Source: an uncultured Gellertiella sp.
Lineage (GTDB): Bacteria > Pseudomonadota > Alphaproteobacteria > Rhizobiales > Rhizobiaceae
DNA length: 64,000 nucleotides
Assembly (NCBI RefSeq): GCF_963457605.1
Contig: NZ_OY735139.1
Span: forward strand, 1,950,501-2,014,500
Reading direction: 5' to 3'
Shown here piece by piece: positions 5,387 through 41,205 of this stretch; position 1 is the first letter of the stretch, and each line of letters starts with the position of its first letter. A program made the position numbers and the translations under genes. Below the pieces are notes generated by a model. It saw only the letters and a program-made list of their open reading frames with translations, searched no databases and was not told the origin of the DNA.

Positions 5387-5444
5387 AAAAAGGCCGCGTG
5401 CAACATGTCCTCAGGACAAGATTGGCCCTGTCGCAACGACAGAT

Positions 5445-5475: not shown

Positions 5476-5485
5476 GACCACCGAC

Positions 5486-6121
5486 ATGCCTGCCCCTGAT
5501 GTTACCGCTCAGCTTTTCGTCGCCTGGGGTGCCTATGTGGCGGCGACCGCCTCACCCGGCCCTGCTGTGATGGCGATCATCGGCACGGCGGTACGGTCCG
5601 GCAGGCGCGCCGGGCTGATGCTGGCGCTGGGCGTGCTCTCGGGGTCGATCACCTGGGCCATCCTCACCACACTCGGCATCTCGGCGCTGATCCGCGCCCA
5701 TCCCGAAGCCATGGTGGCGATCAGGCTGATGGGCGGCAGCTACCTCGTCTGGCTGGCCTGGGGTTCGCTGAAACGGTCGCTTGCCCCGGGCGATCCTCAG
5801 CTCAGGCGACCAGATGCGGCGATTGCCCTGCACCGGCATTACCTGAAGGGCTATGGCATTCACCTCACCAATCCGAAGGCGATCCTCGCCTGGATCATGC
5901 TGGCATCGCTCGCCCTGCCGCCGGGCGCACCCTTCGGGGTCACCATCCTGTTCGTCGGGGTCTGCCTGCTGCTCGGCTTGTGCGTCTTTACCAGCTTCGC
6001 CCTGGTCTTCTCGATCCCGGCGGTGCATCAGGCCTATCTGCGCCTGCGCCGACCGATAGAGGCGGCGATTGCCGTCCTCTTCGGGCTGGCCGGGATCACG
6101 CTTCTTTCAGCCGTTCTGTAA
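5486..6121 (+). CDS. LysE/RhtB-family amino acid exporter
   Basis: Inner-membrane translocator of 211 residues with about six hydrophobic segments, the normal size and layout of the family, which exports amino acids such as lysine, threonine or homoserine lactone. The N-terminal signature [26 protein letters not shown] and the mid-protein [11 protein letters not shown] are typical. The substrate cannot be read from sequence. The 3' end overlaps the 3' end of hisC (opposite strand) by 26 bp. Palindromes in its leader suggest specific control. Confidence 0.9.
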
Positions 6122-7190: not shown

Positions 7191-7199
7191 GTCCAACCT

Positions 7200-8465: not shown

Positions 8466-8584
8466 GGCGGGCTCTTCAGGCGCTATGGACGGGTAGCCTT
8501 CAGGTGGAGGAGGACCGGGGGCTTGTCAAGTTTTTTGGGGTCGCGCCGGTTGCCGGTCGGCGGGATCGAAGGCGGCCGCCCATC

Positions 8585-9778: not shown

Positions 9779-9870
9779 AGCAAGCTCCTCGCGGGGTTGC
9801 GCGCGAGCATAGGTAAAACGGCTTGTTTCTCAACCCCCTGGGGGCCGGGAGCCAGTCGGGCGGAACGACA

Positions 9871-9900
9871 AGGGGCGGACACGTCGCCGAGCCCGCCCCT
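9871..9900 (-). terminator. Possible terminator after pyc
   Basis: Arms AGGGGCGG (9871-9878) and CCGCCCCT (9893-9900) could pair just past the pyc stop. On the minus strand only a short, broken T stretch follows, so termination is uncertain. Confidence 0.35.
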
Positions 9901-9928
9901 CAACTTATTCACGTGGACGTTCTGCCCG

Positions 9929-13387
<3,459 letters not shown>

Positions 13388-26122: not shown

Positions 26123-26166
26123 TTGCTATTTATTGATTTTTGTGATTTTATTGAATGTACGTTCAA
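26123..26166 (+). promoter_or_regulatory. Promoter and palindromic operator of the Rieske oxygenase gene
   Basis: Candidate -35 TTGCTA (26123-26128), 17-nt spacer, -10 TTTTAT (26146-26151). The palindrome TTGAATGTACGTTCAA (26151-26166; one mismatched pair) starts at the -10, the right place for repression. The same 16-mer with two changes occurs in the methyltransferase/flavoprotein intergenic region. The likely binder is the BetI-like TetR protein of this locus (inference). Confidence 0.55.
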
Positions 26167-26183
26167 CTAATAATGAGGCCGAT

Positions 26184-27392
26184 ATGAACCAGACCCTGCG
26201 CAACACCGGCATCCCCGCCAATTGGGACCGCCGGGGCCTGCCCGGCTGGAGCTACCATAGCGAGGCACTGCTGGAGCTCGAGAAGGAGCATGTGTTCCTG
26301 AACCACTGGCAGATTGCCTGCCATGTCAGCGACATCCCGGAGCCTGGCAATTACCTGAGCTTCGACATGATGGGGGAACGGGCGCTGATCGTGCGGGACG
26401 CGAAGGGCACGGTTCGCGCCTTCCACAATATCTGCCGTCATCGCGGCTCGCGGCTGGTGGCCGAAGAGCGCGGCAGCTGCCGCAATGCGCTCGTCTGCCC
26501 CTTCCACGGCTGGGTCTACAATCTCGACGGCACGCTGCGCGGTGCGGCGAGGCCGGAATCCTTCCCCGACCTCGACAAGGTCACCTTCGGCCTGCAGCCG
26601 GTGGAATTCGAGATCTGGAACGGGCTGGTGTTTGTGCGCTTCCGCCCTGGCCCGCAGGGAACGGTTGCCGAGACACTGGGCATCTTCGATGCTGAACTGA
26701 AGCAGTATGACATGGAAAGCTATGTGCCGACCGACGGCATGTGGACACAGGAGTCGCCGGTCAACTGGAAATCGGTGCGCGACGTCGACAACGAGGGCTA
26801 CCATGTCGCCATGGCCCATCCGGCGCTGCAGGACCTCTACGGCTCGACCTATTACGACATCCCGATGAAGAATGGCGTGTCGAGCTCGCATGCCAATTAC
26901 AATCCCTATGCCGGCCGCCGCTGGAGCGTGCGCCACTACATGAAGATCGCGCCAGAGCCGCAGCGCCTGCCGGAGCACCTGCGCCGCAAATGGGCCTATT
27001 ACGGCATGTTCCCGAACTCGGTGATCTCGGTCACGCCGGAAACGATCGGCTTTTACCAGGAATTTCCGCTGTCGACCGGCAAGAGCGTGCTGCGCGGCTC
27101 GGTTTACCGCCAGAAGGTGGAAACCCGCCAGGAGCGACTCGCCCGCTATCTTGCCTTTCGCATCGACCGGGACACCACGGCGGAAGACATCCAGCTGACG
27201 GTCTGGTCGAATGAGGCGATGCTGTCCAGGGCCTTCAAGGGTTTCTACCTGTCTGACCTCGAATTCGGCGTGCGGGCCCATCACGACCACCTGCGCCAGC
27301 AATTGCCGGTGCTCAACGTCGAGACCCTGCCTGAAGGCGTGGATCTTGCTGCCCTCAATGACCGGATGCGGTCCGAAATGCAGGTCGCCTGA
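26184..27392 (+). CDS. Rieske non-heme iron oxygenase, alpha subunit
   Basis: A 402-residue ring-hydroxylating-dioxygenase-type oxygenase. Rieske [2Fe-2S] ligands are Cys84/His86 (CRHRGS) and Cys105/His108 (CPFHGW). The mononuclear iron site is DNEGYHVAMAHP with His207 and His212. The residue bridging the two centres, Asp in most dioxygenases, is Glu204 here, a feature of enzymes acting on quaternary amines (carnitine monooxygenase CntA, stachydrine demethylase Stc2). Oxidative N-demethylation or C-N cleavage of a quaternary or methylated amine is therefore my inference. I choose the ATG at 26184 because the family N-terminus begins there and the longer frame runs into the operator. No reductase gene is adjacent. 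Confidence 0.9.
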   Translation: MNQTLRNTGIPANWDRRGLPGWSYHSEALLELEKEHVFLNHWQIACHVSDIPEPGNYLSFDMMGERALIVRDAKGTVRAFHNICRHRGSRLVAEERGSCRNALVCPFHGWVYNLDGTLRGAARPESFPDLDKVTFGLQPVEFEIWNGLVFVRFRPGPQGTVAETLGIFDAELKQYDMESYVPTDGMWTQESPVNWKSVRDVDNEGYHVAMAHPALQDLYGSTYYDIPMKNGVSSSHANYNPYAGRRWSVRHYMKIAPEPQRLPEHLRRKWAYYGMFPNSVISVTPETIGFYQEFPLSTGKSVLRGSVYRQKVETRQERLARYLAFRIDRDTTAEDIQLTVWSNEAMLSRAFKGFYLSDLEFGVRAHHDHLRQQLPVLNVETLPEGVDLAALNDRMRSEMQVA

Positions 27393-27422
27393 GCCTTCAG
27401 CGAGCTTTGCCGCAAAAGCAAA

Positions 27423-27447
27423 GGGGCCCGGAGCGATCCGGGCCCTT
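27423..27447. terminator. Hairpin between convergent Rieske and aminotransferase genes
   Basis: GGGCCCGG, loop AGCGAT and CCGGGCCC form a strong stem flanked by AA and TT, 31 nt after the Rieske stop. The T tract is only two bases long, so it is a weak but plausible bidirectional terminator. Confidence 0.5.
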
Positions 27448-27467
27448 GGTCATTCCGCAGGGGCAGT

Positions 27468-28877
27468 TCAGTTCTTCCAGAGCCCTTCCCGGGTCAGGTC
27501 ATCCATCGTCAGGCGAATGCCCTTGTCGAGAATGTCGACCATGTCGTCGATCTGGCTGCGGCTGATGGTGAGCGGCGGCGACATCACGCACATGTTGATG
27601 ATCGGCCGCACCATCAGGCCCAGTTCCTGGCAATGCTTGTCGATCCGCTTGCCGACTTCCAGATCGAGCGCCAGCGGATTGTTGCTGTCGCGGTCGGCGA
27701 CGCATTCGATGCCGGCCATCAGCCCCTTGCCGCGCACTTCGCCGACCAGTGCATGCTGCTCAAGCCGCTTCAGGCTGTCGATGAAATGGGATTCCAGATC
27801 GCGGACATTGTCGAGCAGCCCGCCCTCCTCCAGCAACTCGAGATTCTTCAGCGCCACCGCACAGCCGATCGGATGGCTCGAATAGGTCAGGCCGTGGGAG
27901 AAGGTGGCGTCGGTATGTTCCGAAGCACGGATATCCTCGAAAACCTTTGCCGACACCATCACGCCGCCGAGCGGGAAATAGCCTGATGTCACGCCCTTGG
28001 CAAAGGTGATCATGTCGGGCTCGATGCCGAACACGTCCTTCGAGGCAAAAACCGACCCGAGGCGACCGAAGGCGGTGACCACTTCATCGGAAATATAGAG
28101 GATGTCATTGGCCTTGCAGAGCGCATGCATCCGCTGGAGATAGCCGGGGGGCGGCACGATCACCCCGCCCGAGGCCTGGATTGGCTCGGCAACGAAGGCC
28201 CCGATCCGCTCGGCCCCTTCCCGGACGATCAGGGCGGCAAATTCCTCGACCAGGAAATCTTCAAATTCGGCAATGCTCATGCCCTTCGGGCGGCGGAAGG
28301 GATCGGGCGCAGACAGCTTGCGCACCAGATGGCTGGCGCTGTCCATCCAGTCATGGTCGCGCGGCCTGCCGTTCAGCGAGGCCGACAGATAGGTCGAGCC
28401 GTGATAGCCTGCCTGGCGCGACACCATCAGCTTCTTGTCTGGCCGACCCCGGACATTGTTGGAAAACTGCATGAGGCGCAGCGCGGTTTCGACCGCAGAG
28501 GAGCCGCCGGTGGTAAAGAACACATGGTTGAGATCGCCGGGGGCACGCGCCGCCAGCGCATCGGCGAGCTCATCCGACTGGCGGGTGGTGGTGTACCAGG
28601 GCGAATTATAGGTCAGTTTGCGGGCCTGATCGCTCATCGCCGAAATCAGCGCCTCGTTGCGGTGCCCGGCATTGACGCACCACATGCCGGCAGGCCCGTC
28701 GAGCAACCGGTGCCCGTCGGCATCCTCGACATAGACCCCGTCGGACGACCGCAGCAGGCCGCGCACCTCGGCTCCCATCGAGCCCGCCGCAGGCCAGGGC
28801 TGGATGAGGGCCGCCGGATCACCTTCCCGATCGTTTTTCAGGCCATCTGCCCCGGAATTATCGACATTATCCAGCAT
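27468..28877 (-). CDS. Class III (omega) aminotransferase
   Basis: PLP-dependent aminotransferase of 469 residues, fold type I subgroup III, which usually transfers amino groups from omega-amines, beta-alanine, taurine or similar donors to pyruvate or 2-oxoglutarate. Motifs: GPAGMWCVNAGH at the N-terminus, TTGGSSAVETALR (phosphate site), AEPIQASGGVIVPPPGYL, ISDEVVTAFGR and the Schiff-base Lys near residue 293 in FAKGVTSGY. The start at 28877 has GGGAGGG upstream; the longer frame to 28946 adds nothing conserved. It is the promoter-distal gene of a minus-strand group with tetR and the methyltransferase, but a 166-nt gap holds its own candidate operator. Confidence 0.92.
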   Translation of the reverse strand: MLDNVDNSGADGLKNDREGDPAALIQPWPAAGSMGAEVRGLLRSSDGVYVEDADGHRLLDGPAGMWCVNAGHRNEALISAMSDQARKLTYNSPWYTTTRQSDELADALAARAPGDLNHVFFTTGGSSAVETALRLMQFSNNVRGRPDKKLMVSRQAGYHGSTYLSASLNGRPRDHDWMDSASHLVRKLSAPDPFRRPKGMSIAEFEDFLVEEFAALIVREGAERIGAFVAEPIQASGGVIVPPPGYLQRMHALCKANDILYISDEVVTAFGRLGSVFASKDVFGIEPDMITFAKGVTSGYFPLGGVMVSAKVFEDIRASEHTDATFSHGLTYSSHPIGCAVALKNLELLEEGGLLDNVRDLESHFIDSLKRLEQHALVGEVRGKGLMAGIECVADRDSNNPLALDLEVGKRIDKHCQELGLMVRPIINMCVMSPPLTISRSQIDDMVDILDKGIRLTMDDLTREGLWKN

Positions 28878-28950
28878 GGAAATCCCTCCCAGAATTGCAC
28901 TCAAGACGTCTATATGCCCGAAATTTATAATTTTTTCCGGGATCAAGATA

Positions 28951-28966
28951 TTGTCAGTTCAGTCAA
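28951..28966 (-). promoter_or_regulatory. Weaker copy of the Rieske-locus operator
   Basis: Read on the minus strand, TTGACTGAACTGACAA matches 11 of 16 bases of the copy at 30613-30628, including the whole TTGACTG half and the final CAA. It lies 74 nt before the aminotransferase start. Confidence 0.35.
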
Positions 28967-29043
28967 TTTGGCAGAAATGATTGCGCTCGGCAAGTGCTGT
29001 CTTATATAGCGGCCTGTGGCTTGATTGATAGCGTGATGCGATT

Positions 29044-29691
29044 TCAGCGCGGGCCCTGACGGGTAAAGTGCCTGGGATAGACGCTGGCAACGAATTCCCG
29101 CACGGTCAGCACCGCCCGCTCGCGGGTGAGGCCGTCCCCCATCATCAACCGGAACCACAGGCCTTCGATCATGGCGCAAAGCCCGAGTGCTATGGCCTCG
29201 GGATCGCTGTCATAGCCACCGTCGTCGCGCAATTCGCTGCAGATGGCGATGAAATTGTCGACGTAATAGACATCCGTCGCGCCGCAGAGCTGCTGGTAGG
29301 TCGGCCTCGATTTCGCCTCGCCCCAGAAGGAACACCAGGCGGCAATTTTCCGCTTGGTGCAGATCCGCTTGTCGAAATCCGCGCTGGCCAGCGCCCAGAG
29401 CCGGTCCTGTGCCCGGGGCCCGGCCTTTTGCAGGATGGCGTTCCAGTTGCTGGAATATTCGTCCGCCATATATTGCAGCGTCGCGACCAGAAGCTTTTCC
29501 TTGCTCTCGAAATGGAAATTGACGATCCCGCGGGAAAGGCCCGCCCCGTCGGCGACGTCGGCCAGCGTGGTTTCCGCATAGCCACGCTTGGCCAGGCTGT
29601 CGATGGTCGCCTCGATCAGCTGCTGCTGCCGGGTTTCCTTGGTGGCCTTGCGGCTGCGCCTTGCAGGATCGGCCTGGGAGGGATTGGTCAT
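29044..29691 (-). CDS. TetR/AcrR-family repressor, BetI-like
   Basis: A 215-residue repressor: N-terminal HTH (RQQQLIEATIDSLAKRGYAE, then TTLADVADGAGLSRGIVNFHF) and a ligand-binding C-terminal domain with AAWCSFWGEAKSRPTYQQLC, close to the BetI pattern of choline-responsive repressors. It probably senses the substrate or an intermediate of the surrounding pathway. It follows the methyltransferase by 55 nt and likely shares its transcript, which would give autoregulation through the palindrome at 30613-30628. A longer frame to 30075 overlaps the methyltransferase and is not credible. Confidence 0.9.
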   Translation of the reverse strand: MTNPSQADPARRSRKATKETRQQQLIEATIDSLAKRGYAETTLADVADGAGLSRGIVNFHFESKEKLLVATLQYMADEYSSNWNAILQKAGPRAQDRLWALASADFDKRICTKRKIAAWCSFWGEAKSRPTYQQLCGATDVYYVDNFIAICSELRDDGGYDSDPEAIALGLCAMIEGLWFRLMMGDGLTRERAVLTVREFVASVYPRHFTRQGPR

Positions 29692-29746
29692 GCCACCGTC
29701 TTTTCCATTCGTCGCTGTTTCTGTTCGAACCCAGACCGCTGTGCGG

Positions 29747-30544
29747 CTATCCCGCTTCCGGCTTGTGCGCGGAAAGATGGGTCGGGCAATGTTCGCCGCT
29801 GTCGAGAACCTTTTGCATGGCCCTCCAGGTTGCGATATTCCGGTCGACCAGCGCCGCGCCAACCGACGCGACTGCCTTTTCATAGAGTTCGCCCCGCAGC
29901 CTTTCAAGCTCCCCGCGCGCCACCTCGCGATACCAGGGATTGCGGTTGACGGTCCTGACCGCCTCGAAGCCGGCCCTCTGCATGGCGCTGGCGTAAAACT
30001 GTGGCGAACGCATGTTGAACGACAGTCCTTCTGCATCAAGATAGGCAACCATGTCGGCGCTCGGCGGTCCATCATGCGACATCAGCCAGTCCGATGCCAG
30101 AAACAGGCCGCCAGGCTTCAGCACGCGGAAGATCTCGCCAAACAGCCAGTCCTTGTCCGGCACATGCAGCATCGCATCCTTGGAAAACACCAGGTCGAAA
30201 CTGGCATCGGCAAAGGGCACGTCACCGGGCGCGGCGTGGACAAAATCAACACGGTCTGCCTGACCTGCCCGTTCCGCCCGTCGTCGGGCCTTTTCAATCA
30301 GCGGCATCTCGACATCATAGCCGGTCACCGCGGCCGGCGAAAAGGTCCGCGCGAGGTGCAGGGCGACCCCGCCCGAGCCGCAGCCGAAATCCAGAACCGC
30401 CTTGCCCGCCAGGTCCGTTCCTGCCAGTATCCGCGCCACCTCGTCCGGACCGCCGGGCGACAGATAGCCTTCCCCCCACATGATTTCGAGAAACCTTACG
30501 CTATCATCATCATATTCCGCTTCATGCTCTGCCACTGCGCTCAT
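29747..30544 (-). CDS. Class I SAM-dependent methyltransferase, phosphoethanolamine-N-methyltransferase-like
   Basis: A 265-residue Rossmann methyltransferase: motif I VLDFGCGSGGVALHLA (residues about 65-80), motif II/post-I DVEMPLIEKARRRAE, motif III VFSKDAMLHVPDK and FRVLKPGG. The N-terminal SVRFLEIMWGEGYLSPGG resembles the start of phosphoethanolamine and glycine/sarcosine N-methyltransferases, so an amine substrate is plausible. GGGAGG lies upstream of the ATG at 30544; the longer frame (to 30628) runs into the operator. An N-methylating enzyme inside what seems a demethylating locus is unexpected: it may be biosynthetic, or act on another atom. Confidence 0.85.
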   Translation of the reverse strand: MSAVAEHEAEYDDDSVRFLEIMWGEGYLSPGGPDEVARILAGTDLAGKAVLDFGCGSGGVALHLARTFSPAAVTGYDVEMPLIEKARRRAERAGQADRVDFVHAAPGDVPFADASFDLVFSKDAMLHVPDKDWLFGEIFRVLKPGGLFLASDWLMSHDGPPSADMVAYLDAEGLSFNMRSPQFYASAMQRAGFEAVRTVNRNPWYREVARGELERLRGELYEKAVASVGAALVDRNIATWRAMQKVLDSGEHCPTHLSAHKPEAG

Positions 30545-30572
30545 ACCCAACCTCCCGTTTGGACATCCTGCC

Positions 30573-30595
30573 ATGAAATCATATATCGATTTCAT
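30573..30595. promoter_or_regulatory. Second palindrome in the methyltransferase/flavoprotein divergent region
   Basis: Perfect 8-bp arms ATGAAATC and GATTTCAT are separated by seven bases (ATATATC). It lies 29-51 nt before the methyltransferase ATG and 18 nt from the TTGA-type operator. It may bind a second regulator or form an mRNA leader stem. Confidence 0.4.
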
Positions 30596-30612
30596 ACACT
30601 TGCAAAGTTTGA

Positions 30613-30628
30613 TTGAACATACAGTCAA
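30613..30628. promoter_or_regulatory. Palindromic operator shared with the Rieske promoter
   Basis: On the minus strand the site reads TTGACTGTATGTTCAA, 14 of 16 identical to TTGAATGTACGTTCAA at 26151-26166. It lies in the 144-bp region between the divergent methyltransferase and flavoprotein genes, where one bound repressor could shut both directions. Confidence 0.6.
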
Positions 30629-30688
30629 TATTTCTGGACAAATGCGCTCCGATCATGCCATTTTTCGCCCACGCTTGCATTGGGGTAA

Positions 30689-32311
30689 ATGATGAAAACA
30701 TATGATGCCGTGATTGTCGGGGGCGGCCACAACGGTCTCGTAACGGCCTGCTACCTGCAGAAAGCCGGACTTGACGTTGTTGTGGTCGAGAAGAACGACT
30801 GGGTAGGCGGGGCGGCTGTCAGCCGCAGCCTGACCCCGGGTTTCCTCTATTCGAACTGTTCCTATGTCTGCAGCCTGTTCCGGCCGGAGATCATGCGGGA
30901 TCTCGAGTTGCCGAAATACGGGCTGCAGGTGCTGCCCTACGAGGGCGGCGCGGTGCTGACGCAGGATGGCGACTATATCGCCAACTATCGCGAGCACTAT
31001 CCGCACCAGCGCGAATTTGCCCGTTTCTCGAAGAAGGATGCGGAATCCTACGAGCGCTATTCACGCGACGTAACCCGCCAGTGCCGGTTCATCCAGCCGC
31101 TGCTGATGCGCACCGCACCCGATCCGTTCAGCTTCAAGCCGCGCGACGTCCAGGAACTGCTGTTCCTTGCGAAAAAATTCGGCGATTACAGCGCCCATGA
31201 CCTCGCGCAGACCATGCGCTTCTGGACCATGTCGATCTCCGACTTCCTCGACGAATATTTCGAAACCGATGTGCTGAAGGCCTATCTGGCAATCTCCGGC
31301 ATCATCGGCACGGCGCTTGGCCCGATGTCGCCCGGAACCGCCTATGTCCTGCTGCACCATTACATGGGTGAAGTGGACGGCTCTGTGGGTGCATGGGGCT
31401 TTGCCCGAGGCGGCATGGGTGCGATCTCCAAGGCGCTTGCCGCCTCCTTCGAAGCCTCCGGCGGCACGATCCGCACCGGCGCCGAAGTGTCGAAGATCAT
31501 CACCCGCAATGGCCGCACCACCGGTGTGGTTCTGGCCAATGGCGACGAAATCAGCGGCAAGACCGTGATTTCCAACGCCGACGTCAAGCGCACCTTCCTG
31601 AAGCTCGTCGACGAAAGCGCGCTTCCCGACCGCTTCGTTCACCGCGTCAAGCAGTTCAAGATGCGCGGTTCCTCGGGCAAGGTGAACATCGCGCTGAACA
31701 GCCTGCCGGAATTCCCGGCGCTGCCGAAGGGCTCGCCCTGCATCAAGGGCGACCTGCATTTCACCGACAGCATCGAGCGCATGGAACGTGCCTATGATGA
31801 CTGGAAGGCGGAACGCTGGTCAGCCGATCCGATGATCGACCTGATGATCCCGACCGCCATCGATCCGACCATGGCACCTCCGGGACAGCATTTCATGAGC
31901 TGCTTTACCCAATATTGCCCGGTGAAGGTCGAAGGGCGCGACTGGACGGACCAGGACAAGGCCGCCTTTGCCGATTCGGTCATCAACCAGATCGCCGACT
32001 ATTCGCCAGGCTTCCGCGACCGGATCGTGCACATGGAAGTGCGCACGCCCCGTGAGCTGGAAGCGGAAGTGGGCCTGACGGAAGGCAACATCTTCCAGGG
32101 TGAACTCACCTTCGACCAGATCCTCTTCAACCGTCCGGTTCCCGGCTACGCCCAGTATCGCAGCCCCATTTCCGGTCTCTACATCTGCGGTTCGTCGACC
32201 CATCCGGGCGGCGGCGTCATGGGGGCACCCGGACGCAATGCAGCAGCTGAAATCCTGCGTGACTTCAAGCGTTCCCCGAAAGAAATGAGTGCAGCCCATG
32301 ACGTCATTTGA
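30689..32311 (+). CDS. FAD-dependent oxidoreductase, phytoene-desaturase/PYROXD2-like (first copy)
   Basis: A 540-residue flavoprotein. The N-terminus has the dinucleotide fold VIVGGGHNGLVTACYLQKAG followed by VVVEKNDWVGGAAVS, and the C-terminus has the FAD-contacting YICGSSTHPGGGVMGAPGRN, as in CrtI-type desaturases and the poorly understood PYROXD2 group. No carotenoid genes surround it, so it probably oxidises an amine or another small molecule. It heads a + strand operon; its 3' end overlaps the second flavoprotein by 14 nt. The start lies just downstream of a GGGG stretch; ATG at 30692 is an equal alternative. Confidence 0.87.
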   Translation: MMKTYDAVIVGGGHNGLVTACYLQKAGLDVVVVEKNDWVGGAAVSRSLTPGFLYSNCSYVCSLFRPEIMRDLELPKYGLQVLPYEGGAVLTQDGDYIANYREHYPHQREFARFSKKDAESYERYSRDVTRQCRFIQPLLMRTAPDPFSFKPRDVQELLFLAKKFGDYSAHDLAQTMRFWTMSISDFLDEYFETDVLKAYLAISGIIGTALGPMSPGTAYVLLHHYMGEVDGSVGAWGFARGGMGAISKALAASFEASGGTIRTGAEVSKIITRNGRTTGVVLANGDEISGKTVISNADVKRTFLKLVDESALPDRFVHRVKQFKMRGSSGKVNIALNSLPEFPALPKGSPCIKGDLHFTDSIERMERAYDDWKAERWSADPMIDLMIPTAIDPTMAPPGQHFMSCFTQYCPVKVEGRDWTDQDKAAFADSVINQIADYSPGFRDRIVHMEVRTPRELEAEVGLTEGNIFQGELTFDQILFNRPVPGYAQYRSPISGLYICGSSTHPGGGVMGAPGRNAAAEILRDFKRSPKEMSAAHDVI

Positions 32312-33857
32312 TGCGATCATCATCGGTGCCGGCCATAACGGGCTGGTCTCCGCAACCGTTCTTGCCAAGGCAGGCCGCAAGGTTCTGGTGCTCGAGGCAT
32401 CCGACGCCATCGGCGGTGCTGCGAAAACCGTCGAATTTGCGCCGGGCTACCGCACATCGGGCGTCGCCCATATCGTCAACCGCCTCGACCCCGAGGTCGC
32501 AAGCGTCCTGAAGCTCGACCGTTCGGTCTCCTCGGGCGACATGATGCCGACGGTGGTACTGTCGCTCGACAAGGGCCCGATCGTGTTGCGCGGTGCCTAT
32601 GGCGACAAGATTGACGGCATCACGCCGGAAGAGCAGCGCGCCTTCAACGAGATGAAGAAGAAGCTGACCTTCCAGGCCAGCCTGCTGAAGCGTTTCCTGA
32701 AGCGCCGCCCGCCAGAAATCGGCAAGATCACCTTCAAGGACATGAAGGATTTCGGCCTTGCCGGTCTCAGCCTGATCTCGAAGGGCAAGGAAGAAGGCCG
32801 CGACTTCCTGCGCATGATGCTGATGAATGTCGCCGACGTGGTCGACGAATATCTGACCGACGAGCGGCTGCAGGCGCTGGTCGCCTTTGACGCGACGCTC
32901 GGCATCCATCTCGGTCCGCGCTCGCCGACCTCGCTGCTCGGCTTCTACTATCGCCTGATCGGCGAGGCCAATGGCGCGGCTGGCGGCCAGTTCCTGCCCA
33001 AGGGCGGCATGGGCCGGGTCGCGGACGCCTTTGCCAGCGCTGCAAAGCATGCCGGCGTGACGATCCGCACCTCGGCTCCGGTCAGGCGCATCGTCTCGAA
33101 ACACGGCGTTGCCTCGGGCGTGATCCTTGAAAATGGCGAGACCATCAACGCGCCGGTGATCGTTGCCGCCGTGCATCCAAAGACCACCTTCCTGAAACTT
33201 GCCGATCCGGTTGAAGTCGACACCCAGTTCAAGACGCAGATCGACAATATCCGCTCGAAGGGCAATGTCGCCAAGTTCAATCTCGCCCTGAAGAAGGTGC
33301 CGCAGTTTACCGGCGTGTCGGCTGCCGACCACAAGGGTCGTCTGGTCATTGCCCGCACGGTGCGGCATGTCGAGGAAGCCTTCAACCCGGCGAAATACGG
33401 CCAGTTCTCACCCGATCCGGTAATGGAAATCACGCTTCCGAGCCTTTCGGATCCGTCGATGGCACCGGCTGGCGGCTGCACGCTGTCGGCTCTCGTCCAG
33501 TTCGCCCCCTATGAGCTCAAGCAGGGCTGGGAAAATGGCCGGGCGGCCTTCGAGGAGATCATTCTCGCCACGCTCGAGCGCTATGCGCCCGGCATCCGGG
33601 ACCTGATCGACGTCAGCGAGCTTCTGACGCCTGCCGATATCGAAGCCCGCTACAACATGCCGGGTGGCCATTGGCACCATGGCGAGTTGCAGGTTGACCA
33701 GTTGCTGATCAACCGGCCCATCGATCTGGCCGCCGGCTATTCGACGCCGATTGAGGGCCTTTACCTCGCCAGCGCCGGTTCCCATCCGGGCGGCGGCGTT
33801 TCCGGCCTGCCGGGCCTGTTGTCTGCACGTCACATTCTTTCGGGAGGCCGGTCATGA
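32298..33857 (+). CDS. FAD-dependent oxidoreductase, phytoene-desaturase/PYROXD2-like (second copy)
   Basis: A 519-residue paralogue of the preceding flavoprotein: AIIIGAGHNGLVSATVLAKAG at the N-terminus and LYLASAGSHPGGGVSGLPG at the C-terminus. I place the start at ATG 32298, overlapping the upstream stop by 14 nt; GTG at 32289 is possible. The last four bases overlap the next gene (ATGA), so translation is coupled throughout. Two different flavoproteins of the same family side by side suggest either a heteromeric complex or two successive oxidations. Confidence 0.87.
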   Translation: MTSFDAIIIGAGHNGLVSATVLAKAGRKVLVLEASDAIGGAAKTVEFAPGYRTSGVAHIVNRLDPEVASVLKLDRSVSSGDMMPTVVLSLDKGPIVLRGAYGDKIDGITPEEQRAFNEMKKKLTFQASLLKRFLKRRPPEIGKITFKDMKDFGLAGLSLISKGKEEGRDFLRMMLMNVADVVDEYLTDERLQALVAFDATLGIHLGPRSPTSLLGFYYRLIGEANGAAGGQFLPKGGMGRVADAFASAAKHAGVTIRTSAPVRRIVSKHGVASGVILENGETINAPVIVAAVHPKTTFLKLADPVEVDTQFKTQIDNIRSKGNVAKFNLALKKVPQFTGVSAADHKGRLVIARTVRHVEEAFNPAKYGQFSPDPVMEITLPSLSDPSMAPAGGCTLSALVQFAPYELKQGWENGRAAFEEIILATLERYAPGIRDLIDVSELLTPADIEARYNMPGGHWHHGELQVDQLLINRPIDLAAGYSTPIEGLYLASAGSHPGGGVSGLPGLLSARHILSGGRS

Positions 33858-35077
33858 GCATGGACCCCATCGCCAAGCGCAAAGCCGCGCAAAACCACAT
33901 CGACACGCCGATCCTGCGCTCACCCTTCCAGCCCCGGCTGGATGCGCTGAGCCGCACCGACGAATGGTATGTCTGGAACGGCTACAAGTCCGCCCATTCC
34001 GTCACCGACGAGGAGATGGAATATACCTCGATGCGCAATTCGTCGGGCGTCTTCGACGTTTCGCCGATGAACAAATACCGGATCACCGGGCCGGATGCCG
34101 AGCGCTTCCTTGACTATGTCATGGTGCGCAATGTCGCCAAACTCGGCGTCAACCGGGTGCATTATACCTGCTGGTGCGATGATTTCGGCCATGTGATCGA
34201 CGACGGCACGCTGTTCCGCTTCGGCCCCGAGCATTTCCGCCTCTGCTGCCAGGAAAAGCAGTATGACTGGCTGACCGATGCTGCCGTCGGCTTCGATGTC
34301 GCCATCGAGGAAGAAACCAAGGAGATCGCCGGTCTGGCGCTTCAGGGTCCGACCAGCTGCAAGGTGCTGAAGAATGCCGGTTTCGACGGCATTGAGCAGG
34401 TCAAGCCATTCCAGATCGTCACCTATCCACACGAGGGTGGCACGGTCACCATCTCGCGCACCGGCTTTACCGGCGATCTCGGCTACGAACTCTGGGTGCC
34501 GAACGATCTGGCGCTGTCGCTCTGGGACCGCCTGTTTGAAGCAGGCGAGCTGCATGGCATCCGGGCTGTCGGCTATGCGGCGCTGAACCAGTGCCGCATC
34601 GAGACCGCTTTCATCGTGCCCAATGCCGACTTCATGACTGCCGACCATGTGCTGCGCCCCGACCGGGCCCGCATGCCCGACGAAATCGGGCTGGAATGGC
34701 TGATCGATCCGGAAAAGCCGAACTTCAACGGCCGCCGGGCGATCATGGCAGCGCGCAAGAACAACACGCTGAAGCACATTCTCGTCGGCCTCGAAGTCGA
34801 AGGCAACATTCCTGCCGATGGCGCAATCGTCTACCATCGCAAGATCACCGAGGCTGGCATTGTCAGCGCCGGCGTCTGGTCGCCGACCGGCAAGCGCAAC
34901 ATCGCCATCGCCTCGCTGGACCGGCCCTACGGGTCCGACATCACCAGCGATCTCTGGGTGGAAATCTACGCCTTGCGCGAAGGCCGCTATCAGAAGATGA
35001 TGAAGAAGGCCAAGATCGTGTCGCGGCCCTTCGTCAAGCTGGACCGTCGCAACAAGACGCCGCCCGCCGATTTCTGA
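33854..35077 (+). CDS. GcvT-family aminomethyltransferase / folate-dependent demethylase-like protein
   Basis: A 407-residue protein of the glycine-cleavage T-protein fold, also used by DMSP demethylase and by dimethylglycine/sarcosine oxidases to pass one-carbon groups to tetrahydrofolate. The folate-binding N-terminal domain has the Asp-Asp pair in GHVIDDGTLFRF, aligning with the catalytic Asp region of GcvT, and FTGDLGYELWVP; the C-terminal barrel includes GIVSAGVWSPT. It overlaps the second flavoprotein by 4 nt. My inference is that it captures a methyl or methylene unit released by the upstream oxidoreductases. It is not the housekeeping gcvT, since no gcvH or gcvP is near. Confidence 0.85.
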   Translation: MSMDPIAKRKAAQNHIDTPILRSPFQPRLDALSRTDEWYVWNGYKSAHSVTDEEMEYTSMRNSSGVFDVSPMNKYRITGPDAERFLDYVMVRNVAKLGVNRVHYTCWCDDFGHVIDDGTLFRFGPEHFRLCCQEKQYDWLTDAAVGFDVAIEEETKEIAGLALQGPTSCKVLKNAGFDGIEQVKPFQIVTYPHEGGTVTISRTGFTGDLGYELWVPNDLALSLWDRLFEAGELHGIRAVGYAALNQCRIETAFIVPNADFMTADHVLRPDRARMPDEIGLEWLIDPEKPNFNGRRAIMAARKNNTLKHILVGLEVEGNIPADGAIVYHRKITEAGIVSAGVWSPTGKRNIAIASLDRPYGSDITSDLWVEIYALREGRYQKMMKKAKIVSRPFVKLDRRNKTPPADF

Positions 35078-35085
35078 GGTCAGCA

Positions 35086-35331
35086 ATGGACGCCGCAGAA
35101 GAGACCGCACACTGGAACCAGATTTCGACGCCAACAGGCGTCGAATGGTCCGGCCGCTCTCGCTATGCGGCGGCCATGTATTTCTACAGGCACGGCCAGA
35201 TGGATGCGGAAACGCTGGAAATCTACCGTATCTGTTCGCGCCTCGACGCGGAAGATCCGGTCACCGTGATGCGCCGCTGGCATGTCGGCGCCGACTGGAT
35301 CGAGAGATTGCAAATGGCCTCAGACAATTGA
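35086..35331 (+). CDS. Small protein of unknown function at the end of the flavoprotein operon
   Basis: An 81-residue acidic/aromatic protein that I do not recognise. It has no signal peptide, membrane helix or Cys pair; visible features are the segment WSGRSRYAAAMYFYRHGQMD and a C-terminal MRRWHVGADWIERLQMA. It begins 8 nt after the aminomethyltransferase stop with a modest GAGGT site, so it is translated from the same mRNA. Its stop codon lies inside the terminator stem, and the last six codons form the left arm and loop. That tight packing argues that it is a real gene. Confidence 0.7.
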   Translation: MDAAEETAHWNQISTPTGVEWSGRSRYAAAMYFYRHGQMDAETLEIYRICSRLDAEDPVTVMRRWHVGADWIERLQMASDN

Positions 35332-35342
35332 GGCCATTTTTC
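35312..35342 (+). terminator. Rho-independent terminator of the flavoprotein operon
   Basis: Perfect 11-bp stem AAATGGCCTCA / TGAGGCCATTT with loop GACAAT, running into five T. It overlaps the 3' end of the 81-residue gene and ends 19 nt before the stop of the convergent PEBP gene. Confidence 0.9.
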
Positions 35343-36845: not shown

Positions 36846-38459
36846 TCACCCCTTCATGCCTCTGGTCGTGACTTCATGGATCTCGATCAGCGACGGACCG
36901 TCATGGGCTGCAGCCGTCTTCAGTGCTTCGGGCAGATCGGCGATATCAGACAGCCGGACGGAAGGCAGGCCATAGGCTTCGCCGATCCTGACAAAATCCG
37001 GGGCCGATGGCCTGACGCCCTCCGGCGTGATGCCATTGTCGACCATGTAGGTTTCGATTTCCTGATAGCCGTCATTGTTCCAGACCAGATAGATCACCCT
37101 GGCCCCGATATCGCGGGCAGCGCCGATTTCCGACAGGGTGAATTGAAAGCCGCCGTCACCGGTAAGGCACACGACGGGCGTTGCAGGTTCGGCAACGGCT
37201 GCGCCGATAGCCGCCGCCGGGCCGTAGCCGAGGGCGCCGAAACCGGTTGCCGCATTGAACCAGCCCTGCGGCCGGTCGGCATCGTAATAGAGATTGCCGG
37301 CATAGATGGCTTGCGTGGAATCCCCAACGATGATCAGGCCCGGCAATGTGTCACGGACCCGTTCGAGAATGGCGATTTCGCCTTGCATCTTGGCGCTGAG
37401 TTCCGCCCGGGCAGCCCCGCGCAGAGCTTCCGCCCTTTCCGCACCCTTTGCCTTGAGGCAGACGTCTTCCATGAACGGCACAAGATCGGCCAGCAGATTC
37501 TCGACGCTGGAGAGAATCGACAGTCGGCTATCGGGATGGCGGGCCAGCTGTTCCACATCCACATCGACATGGATGACCGTGGCCAGAACAGGAAAGCCGC
37601 CGTCGACATAGACATCGTAATCGGTCTGGCCGAACTGGGTCCCGAGCGCCAGCACCACGTCGGCGTCGGCAATCAGCTTGCGCACACTCTGGAGGCTGGC
37701 GCTGGCGGGAACGGCAAGCGGATGGCCGGGCATCAGACCGCGCGCATTGGCGGTGGTGATGACGGGCGCATCGAGGATTTCGGCAAGCCGGGCAATCGCC
37801 GGTCCCGAGCGGGCAGCCCCGCCACCGGCGAGAATGACCGGGTTTTTCGACGCGCGCAGCACGGCTTCCGCCTGCCGCATCGTCGCGGCGTCACCGCGCG
37901 GGCGCAGGGCCGGGAAGGATTTGAGCCGTGGCGCCGGGATGCGGGCCGCCATCACGTCGGTCGGAATTTCGATATGGACCGGCCCCGGACGGCCCGAACG
38001 CAGCACCGCGAAGGCCCGCGCCATGACATCGGCAAGGTCGTTTGGCTCGAGCAGCGTATGGGTCATCCGGCAGAAACTTGCCATCATGGCGCGCTGGTCG
38101 GGCAGTTCATGCAGCCGCCCCCGGCCATGGCCGAGCGAGCGGCGGGCATTCACCCCGGATATTACCAGCATCGGCACGGAATCCTGCTGGGCCTGCGCCA
38201 TCGCGGTGATGGCATTGGTGAGGCCCGGACCGGTGATCAGCAGGCAGACACCCGGCTTGCCGCTGACCCGCGCATAGCCATCGGCCATGAAGCCTGCGCC
38301 CTGCTCGTGGCGGGGCGTGACATGGCGGATGCCTGAGGCCGCAAGGCCGCGATAAAGCTCCACCGTATGGACGCCCGGTATGCCGAATACCACCTCGACG
38401 CCATTCGCCTCCAGTAGATCGATCAGCGTTTCACCTACAGTCTTCATCGTCTCGGTCAT
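36846..38459 (-). CDS. ThDP-dependent decarboxylase, AruI-like (2-ketoarginine decarboxylase candidate)
   Basis: A 537-residue thiamine-diphosphate enzyme of the acetolactate-synthase superfamily. The N-terminal pyrimidine-binding domain has the activating Glu in RHEQGAGFMADGYAR; the C-terminal diphosphate-binding motif is GDGGFQFTLSE...NNDGYQ near residue 433. It overlaps by 4 nt (ATGA) with an AruH-like aminotransferase; in Pseudomonas aeruginosa aruH and aruI are paired and AruI decarboxylates 5-guanidino-2-oxopentanoate. That pairing and the absence of a small regulatory subunit favour an AruI-like role over acetolactate synthesis. The substrate is an inference. Confidence 0.85.
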   Translation of the reverse strand: MTETMKTVGETLIDLLEANGVEVVFGIPGVHTVELYRGLAASGIRHVTPRHEQGAGFMADGYARVSGKPGVCLLITGPGLTNAITAMAQAQQDSVPMLVISGVNARRSLGHGRGRLHELPDQRAMMASFCRMTHTLLEPNDLADVMARAFAVLRSGRPGPVHIEIPTDVMAARIPAPRLKSFPALRPRGDAATMRQAEAVLRASKNPVILAGGGAARSGPAIARLAEILDAPVITTANARGLMPGHPLAVPASASLQSVRKLIADADVVLALGTQFGQTDYDVYVDGGFPVLATVIHVDVDVEQLARHPDSRLSILSSVENLLADLVPFMEDVCLKAKGAERAEALRGAARAELSAKMQGEIAILERVRDTLPGLIIVGDSTQAIYAGNLYYDADRPQGWFNAATGFGALGYGPAAAIGAAVAEPATPVVCLTGDGGFQFTLSEIGAARDIGARVIYLVWNNDGYQEIETYMVDNGITPEGVRPSAPDFVRIGEAYGLPSVRLSDIADLPEALKTAAAHDGPSLIEIHEVTTRGMKG

Positions 38460-39646
38460 GCGCGTTTTGCCTCCCGGGCGGCCAGAGTGCGGGCAAGGTC
38501 TGCAATCCTCGTTGCCGCCGTTGTCAGCGACGCATCGGGAACCGTCAGCGAAATCCGGATGAAATCCCGCGCCTCCTCGCCAAAGGAGGAGCCAGGCATC
38601 ACCGCGACATTTTGCGTCTTCAGCAATTCCCAGGCGAAATCCTCGCCCGACAGCCCGCTGGCCGACACATCGATCAGGATGAACATGCCGCCTTCAGGCA
38701 TCATCACCCTGAGCAGGGGCTCACCGGCAAGCGCGTTTTCGAGGATGCGGGCGCGGCGCAGGTAGTTTTCCCGCATCACCGCCGAGGTCGAGAAAGGCTG
38801 CGAGACGGCCATGGCCGTCATGTCCGAGATGAAGGGCTGGCCGCCGAACAGCATGGTCTCGGACACCGGCAGGACACGCTCGCAAAACGCCTCCGGACCT
38901 GCCGCCCAGCCGCTGCGGAAACCCGGGGCGGCATGGGATTTCGAAATCGACGAGACAACGATGGTGCGGTCCGACAGATCGGGATTGTCGAAGGGCGAGG
39001 CAAAGGCCGCGTCGAAAATCAGCTCCTCGTAGACTTCGTCCGAGACGATCCAGAGATCGTGCCTGCGGCAGACCTCGCCGATGGCGGCGATTTCGTCTGC
39101 GGTCAGCACGGCCCCGGTCGGATTGTGCGGCGAATTCAGCAGCAGCACCCGGCACTCCGGGGTGATCGCCTTCTCGAGATCCTCGGCCCTGAGATGGAAA
39201 CGGTTGCCGGGGCTGAGCGGCACTGGCACCAGCCGGGCACCGGTCGAGGCAACGACACCTTCATACGTGGCATAGAGAGGATCGCCGACCAGTACCGCAT
39301 CGCCCGCCTCGACGAGGCCGAGCATCACCGCGAACAGCGCGGTCTGGGTGCCGGGAAAGCAGAGGATGTTGTTTTCGGTGACACCGGCCCGGCGCTTGCG
39401 GTATTTCTCCGCCAGCGCCTTGACGACGGCGGGTTCGCCGCGCCCGTTCGAATAGCGGGTGCGTCCGGCATGCATGGCGCGCGTGCATTCCTCCAGCAGC
39501 GCCTGGTCGGGTGCCACATCGGGCTCGCCGATTGTCAGCTCGATGATGTCCTTTCCGGCAGCCGCCATGGCGCGGGCCTCGATATGAACGGCCCACTTGC
39601 CGGACCCGAGAGTGGACAGCCTTTCGGTGATGGAGGCGTAACGCAT
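38456..39646 (-). CDS. Class I aminotransferase, AruH-like (arginine:pyruvate transaminase candidate)
   Basis: A 396-residue PLP enzyme: MRYASITERL at the N-terminus, LNSPHNPTGAVL, WIVSDEVYEELIFD and Schiff-base Lys near residue 236 in SISKSHAAPGFRSGW. The sequence layout strongly recalls AruH, which moves the amino group of arginine to pyruvate to give 2-ketoarginine. It is translationally coupled to the AruI-like decarboxylase. I start at 39646 because the conserved N-terminus begins there. It follows the TetR gene by 31 nt. Confidence 0.87.
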   Translation of the reverse strand: MRYASITERLSTLGSGKWAVHIEARAMAAAGKDIIELTIGEPDVAPDQALLEECTRAMHAGRTRYSNGRGEPAVVKALAEKYRKRRAGVTENNILCFPGTQTALFAVMLGLVEAGDAVLVGDPLYATYEGVVASTGARLVPVPLSPGNRFHLRAEDLEKAITPECRVLLLNSPHNPTGAVLTADEIAAIGEVCRRHDLWIVSDEVYEELIFDAAFASPFDNPDLSDRTIVVSSISKSHAAPGFRSGWAAGPEAFCERVLPVSETMLFGGQPFISDMTAMAVSQPFSTSAVMRENYLRRARILENALAGEPLLRVMMPEGGMFILIDVSASGLSGEDFAWELLKTQNVAVMPGSSFGEEARDFIRISLTVPDASLTTAATRIADLARTLAAREAKRA

Positions 39647-39677
39647 GGACGTGATCCTTGTCGATTTCAAAATGCAG

Positions 39678-40316
39678 TCAGATGTCAGAGAGATACCCTG
39701 CCGGCAGCGACAGGATGGCCTCGGCGGCATTGAGCGCCACTCCGGCCAGCTCGCCTTCGGCAAACAGGTCGCCCGCCATGGAGGCTTCGAGCCAGAGACC
39801 GTCGATGACGGCGTTGACGGCAATGGCCAGCCGGCGGCTTTCGGCAGGACCCGGCTTTCTGCCGTCGACCGGTGGCAATTCGACGATCAGGCCTTCGAGC
39901 GCCGCCACATAGGCGAGATAGTTTTCCCGGTGAATCCGGGCAAATTCCGGATCTGCCGGGATATGGCCGATAAAGGCCGCCCAGACCCCCAGAGTCTGGG
40001 TCTGGGCCATCGCTTCCATGAAGGCGGAACTGATGTAACCGCGCAGCCGGGCACGCGGATCCGTTCCGGCATCCAGGGCAGCCTGGATCGAGGTTTCGGT
40101 CATGGTTTCCATCACCGAGCGATAGGCAGCGCGCAGCACCTCGTCCTTGCTCTTGAAATAGTGGCGGATCAGGCCGCCGGTTACCCCTGCCCGGGCGGCA
40201 ATCTGGCGGACGGTTGCCCCCTGCACGCCCGATTCGGCAACGCATTCGACCGCCGCCGCAATCAGGTCGCGCCGCCGTTCGGCTTCGCCTGCCCGGTGGA
40301 ATGCACGGCGGCTCAT
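39678..40316 (-). CDS. TetR-family regulator of the guanidino-compound operon
   Basis: A 212-residue regulator with an N-terminal HTH (RRRDLIAAAVECVAESG, VRQIAARAGVTGGLIRHYF) and a C-terminal domain that again resembles BetI (GVWAAFIGHIPADPEFARIH). It lies 1 nt after the hydrolase stop, so it is in the operon it probably controls through the dyad in the promoter at 41252-41280. The longer frame to 40406 overlaps the hydrolase and is not used. Confidence 0.9.
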   Translation of the reverse strand: MSRRAFHRAGEAERRRDLIAAAVECVAESGVQGATVRQIAARAGVTGGLIRHYFKSKDEVLRAAYRSVMETMTETSIQAALDAGTDPRARLRGYISSAFMEAMAQTQTLGVWAAFIGHIPADPEFARIHRENYLAYVAALEGLIVELPPVDGRKPGPAESRRLAIAVNAVIDGLWLEASMAGDLFAEGELAGVALNAAEAILSLPAGYLSDI

Positions 40317-40317
40317 C

Positions 40318-41205
40318 TCAGAGCGCCTGACCGGCGGAACGCCAGACCGGGCGGGTGAGGCAGGTCGGCCCGCCCTCGCAGGCAATGCACAGGGCATCGG
40401 CCTCAAAGGTTTCCACCGTGCAGCCGGCAGCTTCCATCACGGCCTTCGTGCCGGGGAAACCGGCAACGGCAATCACTTTCTTCGGGCTTACCGGCAGGAC
40501 ATTGAGGTTCAGCCCGGCGCTTGCGGCAAATTCGTCTTCCGGCGCATGGAGCAGGGTCATGCCCATGTCGCGCAGCAGCAGATAGAAGGCCGCCGGCATC
40601 AGCGGCGCATGCACCAGCGCCAGATCGTCGGCCAGCGGGCTCATCACCGACATCAGGTGCAGGCAGGCCGCTTCACCGGCCCAGAGCGGCAGATCGAAGG
40701 TCAGGACCTTGATGCCGAGCGGGGCGAGAATGGCCTCGACCTGTTCGATCCCCGCCTGGTTGGAGCGAACGCCGCGACCGATGGCAAGCGTCGTGCGGTT
40801 GACCCAGATGCAGTCGCCGCCTTCCACCGTGCCCGGCGCTTCCACCCGGCCAAGAACCGGAATGCCTGCGGCCCGGTAGGCGGCTTCATGCAGCGACGGC
40901 TCGCTCCGGCGCAGCACCTTGCCCATGTTCAGGATCAGCGCGCCCCGGTCGGTCATCAGCGAGGGATCGTGGGTGAACATGGCATCGGCCATGCCATCGC
41001 CCTTGTCCTCGATCCAGAGGATTTCGGCACCGGATTTTTCCACCAGCCGGGTGAATTCGGCATATTGGCCCAGCGCCTTTTCAGCATCAAAGGTCGGCCC
41101 GTAGTGCCATTTGGCAGCATCGGCAGCAAGCAGGCTCGGGCCTGGCCGGCGCATCATCACCCGCTTGAGGTCGGCTGACATTTCCTGGGAACCATAGGCG
41201 GGCAT
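40318..41205 (-). CDS. Dimethylargininase / arginine-deiminase superfamily hydrolase
   Basis: A 295-residue guanidino-modifying enzyme of the pentein fold. The Glu of EGGD (residue 128), His183 (CLHLMS) and the nucleophile Cys282 (GGPTCLTRP) match the catalytic triad of dimethylarginine dimethylaminohydrolase, which cuts methylated arginine to citrulline plus a methylamine; FTHDPSLM is the usual substrate-binding loop. Related family members act on arginine or other guanidines, so the exact substrate is open. First gene of the minus-strand operon, with a good AGGAG site and promoter. Confidence 0.88.
   Translation of the reverse strand: MPAYGSQEMSADLKRVMMRRPGPSLLAADAAKWHYGPTFDAEKALGQYAEFTRLVEKSGAEILWIEDKGDGMADAMFTHDPSLMTDRGALILNMGKVLRRSEPSLHEAAYRAAGIPVLGRVEAPGTVEGGDCIWVNRTTLAIGRGVRSNQAGIEQVEAILAPLGIKVLTFDLPLWAGEAACLHLMSVMSPLADDLALVHAPLMPAAFYLLLRDMGMTLLHAPEDEFAASAGLNLNVLPVSPKKVIAVAGFPGTKAVMEAAGCTVETFEADALCIACEGGPTCLTRPVWRSAGQAL

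Follow-up and report, generated by a model that had tools for sequence, protein, structure and literature searches.

We analysed a 64,000-nucleotide stretch of the genome of an uncultured Gellertiella sp. (the window; contig NZ_OY735139.1, G000:C2:1950501-2014500 in our numbering), a genome of 4.17 Mb in two contigs, and focused on a cluster of eight genes, here called A to H, which a preliminary description had proposed as a pathway for an N-methylated compound. Open reading frames were confirmed for all eight proteins at the positions first assigned to them. The cluster begins with a Rieske non-haem iron oxygenase on the forward strand (A, 26184..27392, assigned with Pfam, NCBIfam and PDB sequence comparison), which is followed on the reverse strand by a class III aminotransferase of the PRK07036 family (B, 27468..28877), a TetR/BetI-like regulator (C, 29044..29691, assigned with curated family libraries) and an S-adenosylmethionine (SAM) methyltransferase related to phosphoethanolamine and sarcosine/dimethylglycine N-methyltransferases (D, listed as 29747..30628). 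Four further genes lie on the forward strand: two CrtI/CrtO-like flavoproteins that are 31% identical (E, 30689..32311, the best conserved core protein, and F, 32298..33857), a stand-alone GcvT-fold, aminomethyltransferase-like protein (G, 33854..35077) and a conserved protein of 81 amino acids without a family (H, 35086..35331). E and F overlap by 14 bases, F and G by 4, and a gap of 8 bases separates G from H, so that E to H probably form one transcription unit; D and C are transcribed opposite to E, out of one common intergenic region. The reading frame of B opens at 28946, but translation likely starts at an internal ATG near 28877, because a TTG start at 28946 would place a palindrome nearly against the start codon, and the true start of D is probably also an internal ATG, at about 30544-30595. 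Searches against Rfam at gathering scores gave no match within the window.

Conservation defines a core within this cluster. Of 249 genomes of the order, 17 carry G at E ≤ 1e-80, one of them the Gellertiella genome itself, and a profile of 14 G proteins recovered at least 579 relatives in matched stretches of named genomes. We retained the best 80 of these at least 579 relatives (from Mesorhizobium, Shinella, Rhizobium, Hoeflea, Phyllobacterium, Aquibium, Roseibium and others), and at more than 40% identity their neighbourhoods contain F, G and H in all 80 cases, C in 79, E in 78, D in 63, B in 15 and A in 9. Loci from named genomes, from genomes of the order, class and phylum and from five plasmid records were combined into a set of 118 core loci, in which proteins were scored at ≥45% identity over 60%: E was present in 115, G in 107, F in 101, C in 97, H in 92, D in 75, B in 22 and A in 17 (locus L082 duplicates L023, and its removal lowers counts by at most one). 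Most of these loci span about 10 kb on each side of G, with farther genes and genes of short loci scored as missing; A is undercounted on this scale, since three genomes of the same family carry it 12-14 kb away from G. The genes that flank the cluster in the window rarely accompany the core, as glucan synthase was found near it in 2 of the 118 loci, PEBP and AraC in 1 each, the AruI, aminotransferase and TetR genes in 4 each, and the permease and M20 peptidase in 5 each. The E-F-G block and the TetR gene C outlast local synteny. Of the co-occurrence that the preliminary description had proposed to look for among all eight genes, a steady C-E-F-G core emerged, with H and D in most loci, while A and B proved to be variable partners.

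Because all 118 loci were picked for having G or E, the counts of these two genes are not independent evidence; those for F, C, the aminotransferase, transporter and Rieske genes are. In a subset of 18 loci with less than 70% identity in G, scored at ≥38% identity over 55%, E is present in 18, F in 16, C in 11, D in 6 and H in 3, and a class III aminotransferase of any kind accompanies 12, a PotD/F-type binding protein 12 and a Rieske protein 7. Co-occurrence scored without regard to position across the 249 genomes of the order gave a similar association: F was found in 16 of the 17 genomes with G and in 1 of the remaining 232; the corresponding figures for A were 11 of 17 and 9 of 232. Leaving out the ten genomes of the same family, A remained in 6 of 12 G-positive genomes and 8 of 227 others (the Fisher tests on these F and A counts ignore phylogeny). 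In distant Alphaproteobacteria (L167-L169) the flavoprotein-flavoprotein-GcvT order is kept with G about 30% identical, and of 398 genomes sampled from the phylum, 11, all belonging to the same class, have E at 1e-150. No G relative was found among viral contigs.

Common palindromes accompany the cluster. Those reported in the preliminary description resolve into two clear sites, TTGAATGTACGTTCAA upstream of A (26151..26166, no mismatches to the pattern TTGANYGTWCRNTCAA) and TTGAACATACAGTCAA between the divergent D and E (30613..30628, one mismatch), and a weaker one, TTGACTGAACTGACAA, upstream of B (28951..28966, two mismatches). The site before B is too weak for the genome pattern search and rests on its likeness to the site before a second operon elsewhere in the genome (L131), from which it differs by one base. 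Scanning the genome for TTGANYGTWCRNTCAA with at most one mismatch returned 5 places in 4.17 Mb, compared with 0 for the reversed control; two of them lie in the cluster, a third (C2:1397957) lies before the second operon, and a fourth (C2:1160687, one mismatch) lies just upstream of a GbcA-like Rieske gene (L132). We also scanned the 350 bases upstream of each gene in relatives for TTGAMYRWWCRKTCAA with at most one mismatch, and found sites before E in 76 of 113 cases, A in 12 of 16, ABC (ATP-binding cassette) permeases in 25 of 36, C in 12 of 97 and AT120-type aminotransferases in 4 of 11. No sites were found upstream of F (0/101), G (0/106), H (0/90) or the binding protein SBP118 (0/92) in these relatives, and shuffling the bases of each upstream stretch ten times produced no site; the site counts are not independent of one another, since many loci are closely related. 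The cluster is a conserved, apparently co-regulated unit, found in rhizobia and in some marine relatives, and C, from the position of its gene, is presumed to bind the palindromes.

We next consider the proteins of the core. E and F fall below the curated cut-offs for CrtO (305 and 212 bits, respectively, vs 1000) and for phytoene desaturase (crtI_fam; 139.5 and 127.5 vs 238.1 bits), and sequence comparison gave phytoene dehydrogenase (4dgk) as a PDB relative of E. G matches PF01571 with 189.6 bits (gathering score 25.6) and carries an acidic IDDG motif in which D116/D117 are invariant in 14/14 sequences, with an Asp that we take to be catalytic. It falls below the three cut-offs for GcvT of glycine cleavage (208.6 vs 300, 156.7 vs 235.85 and 109.2 vs 459 bits); its best match in both NCBIfam and PDB is the C-terminal part of trimethylamine N-oxide (TMAO) demethylase, Tdm (PDB 9q5a), with aminomethyltransferases also among the PDB matches. 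G is not a full-length TMAO demethylase, as it scores 228 vs 1100 bits and covers profile positions 386-758 only. H has no family in Pfam (E 0.01) or NCBIfam (E 1e-5) and resembles the N-terminus of a PF16867 (DMSP_lyase-type) cupin in two clusters (L120:19533-20384 and L033:16629-17471); in the window it is free-standing. Two apparent fusions did not hold: in the 1119-codon frame of L028 that seemed to join an aminotransferase to E, the aminotransferase match falls in a different frame, and the 933-codon G-F frame of L036 holds G and the first part of F only, the remainder lying in another frame. Possible breaks were noted in L036:7873-9394, where F extends over two frames, and in the H stretch of L079, where a stop may be the natural end. 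Separately, a second small GcvT-like protein of 377 amino acids lies near the core at L040:12112-13245, with copies 94-99% identical in L041, L045 and L047.

Among the remaining proteins, A combines PF00355 and PF00848, and its first PDB relative by sequence comparison is carnitine monooxygenase (CntA). The bridging Glu ascribed to it in the preliminary description is present, as the equivalent of CntA E205 in an NEGYH motif in 17/17 orthologs, and the longer motif D-N-E-G-Y-H-V is invariant in the same 17 (>300 aligned residues). The remainder of the group V signature is absent from A: position 203, in CntA numbering counted from the bridging Glu, is Asp in 17/17 rather than Tyr/Phe (group Va) or Asn (group Vb), and Gly and Val replace the cysteine pair C206/C209 in all 17. 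Excerpts of PMC7948474 and PMC10952381 give the bridging Glu and the cysteine pair, respectively, as criteria for group V Rieske enzymes. A carries this Asp where described quaternary-amine Rieske enzymes have the pi-cation residue, a change that could fit a protonated amine. A possible break is a TAA within an A relative at G036:C55:165000-166166. B lies above the curated cut-off of NF005447/PRK07036 (668.4 vs 618 bits), with 3i5t as a PDB relative. C is a TetR protein with a BetI-type C-terminus (PF13977) whose scores of 116.7 and 112.4 bits fall short of the two BetI cut-offs (201.3 and 118 bits, respectively), while two BetIs above cut-off are encoded elsewhere in the genome (C2:3317477 and C2:3325939); excerpts of PMC12442346 describe Alphaproteobacteria having two BetIs. 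The PDB relatives of D by sequence comparison are plant phosphoethanolamine methyltransferases, and, judged by eye, D differs at the positions aligned to what we take to be the phosphate-binding Arg/Tyr of phosphoethanolamine N-methyltransferase.

The palindrome at C2:1397957 leads to a second operon outside the window (L131, G000:C2:1385000-1404900), which reads away from its palindrome. Its first gene encodes another Rieske protein, Rieske2 (L131 11595-12728), followed by two PotF-like binding proteins (10447-11556 and 9195-10304), a trimethylamine-dehydrogenase-like (TMADH-like) enzyme (6989-9007) and an amidohydrolase (5300-6931). The group V signature that is incomplete in A is found here: Rieske2 carries the motif NYNECLHC, NY(N/S)ECLHC is present in 5/5 Rieske2 sequences including this one, and the equivalents of Tyr203, Glu205 and Cys206/Cys209 agree with group Va. 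According to excerpts of PMC7948474 and PMC10952381, the aromatic residue, bridging Glu and cysteine pair are features of the carnitine/choline branch of group V. By sequence comparison the closest solved relatives of Rieske2 are 3n0q, 3vca and 4qup, then CntA. One binding protein of the operon (SBP2) resembles PotF/SpuD-type proteins (7oyv 3e-94, 1a99 1e-92), and the TMADH-like enzyme has histamine and trimethylamine dehydrogenases as its nearest solved relatives (3k30 1e-192, 1djn 4e-157). The GbcA-like Rieske gene behind the fourth palindrome (L132:6377-7651, about 1160 kb on G000:C2, identified by eye, motif ENYWECYHC) is possibly a third target of C. A further group of genes, at L131:13118-16026 and 17566-18798, possibly represents another amine pathway: P450-like, glutamine-synthetase/gamma-glutamylputrescine-synthetase-like and ferredoxin-like frames end just before the palindrome of the second operon, and farther on come a GntR-like regulator and a second P450-like gene, the P450, ferredoxin and GntR assignments being made by eye.

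In some relatives, the parts that are dispersed in Gellertiella come closer together. Fuscovulum ytuae (L120) has a single row of aminotransferase, E, F, G, Rieske2-like, A-like, PotF-like, ATPase, permeases, cupin, amidohydrolase and methyltransferase genes, which holds all parts except the TMADH-like gene. A tandem Rieske pair occurs in L033 and L173, and a TMADH-like gene in L121, L158 and L159. L041 and L045 carry Tdm no more than 9 kb from G (the family match was scored for the L041 piece, which is truncated by a frame break or by the end of the locus and reaches 840 bits vs a cut-off of 1100), and the sarcosine oxidase alpha subunit SoxA lies within 1 kb in L035. Directly after H, an aminobutyraldehyde dehydrogenase follows in L030, L102 and L055 (PRK13473 above cut-off, tested for L030); the Gellertiella genome has a copy, 74% identical, elsewhere. 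Ten PotF-type proteins of the second operon and the core loci contain WxGD in 10/10 and WxD in 9/10 cases (not found in L033), a count restricted to the PotF type; the PotD-like SBP118 type is the commoner of the two. In PotF, the acidic residues of these motifs presumably bind both ammonium groups of putrescine. The joining genes point to catabolism of a methylated cationic amine, and the partner genes, although few, fit a methylated diamine-like amine that would end as an aminoaldehyde. We also observed an ADP-forming acyl-CoA ligase-like gene near the core in L028, L029, L034 and L162 (47-60% identical to the L034 copy), which matches acetate, 3-hydroxypropionate and 4-hydroxybutyrate--CoA ligase models below their cut-offs.

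Combining the observed gene content, conservation, co-occurrence and common palindromes with functions assigned to the enzymes and to C from their families, we consider it probable that the cluster is the core of a multi-locus regulon for breaking down a cationic N-methylated amine. In this scheme C would repress the regulon through TTGA-N8-TCAA-type palindromes, and the amine, most likely a diamine- or polyamine-like dication, would be bound by PotF-type periplasmic proteins and then imported. Rieske2 and then A, together with the TMADH-like enzyme, would demethylate quaternary and tertiary nitrogen, after which E and F would oxidise the remaining tertiary or secondary N-methyl groups to an iminium or formaldehyde, and G would move the one-carbon unit to tetrahydrofolate, yielding 5,10-methylene-tetrahydrofolate. 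B would transaminate the freed primary amine to an aldehyde, which could pass to the neighbouring aminobutyraldehyde dehydrogenase in three relatives. D may methylate an amine intermediate, the weakest step of the scheme. Degradation of a quaternary or polymethylated amine, as first proposed, is consistent with a conserved unit and its partners (Rieske2, TMADH-like, PotD/PotF, Tdm, SoxA and aminobutyraldehyde dehydrogenase), although the window holds only part of the system; the further proposal of a separate transferable amino group on the substrate is not required, because full demethylation itself yields a primary amine for the transaminase. As to the substrate, an N-methylated diamine or polyamine is our leading if tentative guess, another small betaine a weaker one, and a methylated lysine or any other compound weaker still, each to the same degree.

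The proposed degradation regulon has parallels in known systems. Glycine betaine catabolism (GbcAB, DgcAB, SoxBDAG) removes N-methyl groups stepwise, with a Rieske enzyme first and a GcvT-domain flavoprotein complex last that yields methylene-tetrahydrofolate. The sequential N-methyl removal, the Rieske start and the GcvT/methylene-tetrahydrofolate end would be alike here, but the flavoproteins are CrtI/CrtO-like and the GcvT protein is free-standing, the set includes an aminotransferase and transport of the polyamine type, and A and Rieske2 reach 133 and 179 bits against the GbcA cut-off of 670. Stachydrine catabolism in Sinorhizobium similarly joins a Rieske N-demethylase (Stc2) to what we take to be an NADH:flavin oxidoreductase-type demethylase in rhizobia, and 3vca, the second-best solved relative of Rieske2, is presumably Stc2. 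Rieske2 differs in having Tyr rather than Asn at 203, the flavin enzyme of L131 is nearest to histamine and trimethylamine dehydrogenases, and we know of no E-F-G set in stachydrine catabolism. Rieske2 shares the Tyr203, Glu205 and Cys206/Cys209 equivalents with CntA, the group Va carnitine monooxygenase, but is nearer overall to 3n0q, 3vca and 4qup, and A lacks both the Tyr and the Cys pair. Tdm resembles G in its C-terminal part; G has no counterpart of the Tdm N-terminal part, and E and F would be its oxidative partner. A search of openly licensed PubMed Central (PMC) literature, judged from titles and the starts of abstracts, returned no description of this gene set, in agreement with the preliminary description, whose author knew of no such pathway.

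Several observations weigh against a degradation regulon of this kind. A and B are absent from the examined stretch of most of the 118 loci, and three of the catabolic neighbours are near the core in few of them (aldehyde dehydrogenase in 3, Tdm in 2, SoxA in 1). Apart from the bridging Glu, A misses most of the signature of the quaternary-ammonium (group V) Rieske enzymes, G is under the cut-off of every NCBIfam family listed, and the named CrtI/CrtO relatives of E and F are desaturases, isomerases or ketolases; a SAM methyltransferase such as D is odd in a demethylation pathway. On the regulatory side, the fifth genomic palindrome (C2:507533) has no sensible target, only 5 of 22 relatives have a site before B, whose own site in Gellertiella has two mismatches, and of five Rieske2 genes only the one in L131 has a site, three of the other four lying directly or nearly directly after G. 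The second operon encodes binding proteins but no permease or ATPase, and the best transporter homologues in the genome lie on contig 1 without a palindrome.

Alternatively, the regulon could degrade N6-methylated lysines (mono-, di- and trimethyl) instead of diamines, with the Rieske proteins and flavoproteins stripping the N6-methyl groups and the aminotransferase taking the freed omega-amine. In favour of this stands human PYROXD2, presumably a CrtI/CrtO-type member of the flavoprotein superfamily of E and F, for which we know of no GcvT partner. Its genetics serve as a lead rather than a test: excerpts of PMC8109053 and PMC9730628 report for one cohort that N6-methyllysine is genetically linked most strongly to PYROXD2 (50% of variance), associate it also with dimethyl- and trimethyllysine, N-methylpipecolate and N-acetyl-isoputreanine, and cite earlier work linking it to methylamines. 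The PotF-type binding proteins, however, look diamine-type rather than amino-acid-type, and no lysine catabolism gene is conspicuous among the identified neighbours (not all neighbours were identified); we rate methylated lysines as unlikely substrates.

The direction of the pathway could also be reversed, with the aminotransferase, D and the flavoproteins building an N-methylated product and G acting as a folate-dependent one-carbon donor. D resembles N-methyltransferases, and the aminotransferase of the clusters in other families has its nearest match, scoring under the cut-off, in GntE of guanitoxin biosynthesis. We find biosynthesis improbable given the importer genes, neighbours of catabolic type (aminobutyraldehyde dehydrogenase, SoxA, Tdm and the TMADH-like enzyme) and the presence of D in only 75 of the 118 loci.

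That the genes belong to the known, BetI-regulated choline/glycine betaine pathway or a paralogue of it is suggested by the BetI-like character of C and by the one-mismatch palindrome just before the GbcA-like Rieske gene of L132. None of the five genomic palindromes lies near the two above-cut-off BetIs, A scores 133 bits where the GbcA model demands 670, and the eight genes include no betaine-aldehyde or choline dehydrogenase; we give this reading very little weight, and a plain choline/betaine pathway was rejected on the cut-offs together with the two other BetIs. Least probable of all is sulfonium or elimination chemistry, in which a dimethylsulfoniopropionate (DMSP)-like compound would be handled with a cupin and G would act like DmdA: DmdA shares the GcvT fold, and the clusters of L120 and L033 encode a DMSP_lyase-type cupin whose N-terminus is H-like, while that of L032 encodes another member of the same Pfam family, but G scores 228 bits for TMAO demethylase and 209 for GcvT against 102 for DmdA, the L120 cupin is matched (≥35% identity) in only 2 of 96 loci, and the Rieske and TMADH partners are amine-type.

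To the right of the cluster, the window contains a block at 36846-40406 with an AruI-like 5-guanidino-2-oxopentanoate decarboxylase (754 bits vs a cut-off of 500), beside which stand a class I aminotransferase most like GntC (below cut-off) and a second BetI-like TetR gene; farther right are arginine/histidine-type ABC permeases and an M20-type amidohydrolase. We considered the AruI block as a part of the pathway and rejected it, as just 4 of the 118 loci (L038, L039, L048 and L110) have AruI, the aminotransferase and the TetR gene close to the core.

Returning to the degradation of a cationic N-methylated amine, a bolder and doubtful extension is that E, F and G together make up an N-demethylase of a new type, in which a CrtI/PYROXD2-type pair and a free-standing GcvT protein would deliver the methyl carbon to tetrahydrofolate. 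It would stand at the centre of the first bacterial pathway for N-methylated diamines or polyamines or for methyllysine, and could serve as a bacterial model for the as yet unexplained association of human PYROXD2 with methyllysine. The palindrome and regulator C offer an immediate handle on the inducer. If the proposal is true, it may help explain the action of human PYROXD2 on methyllysines, desaturase-like flavoproteins would be added to the folate-coupled N-demethylases, and the cluster would show how rhizobia and other Alphaproteobacteria use a class of methylated cationic amines.

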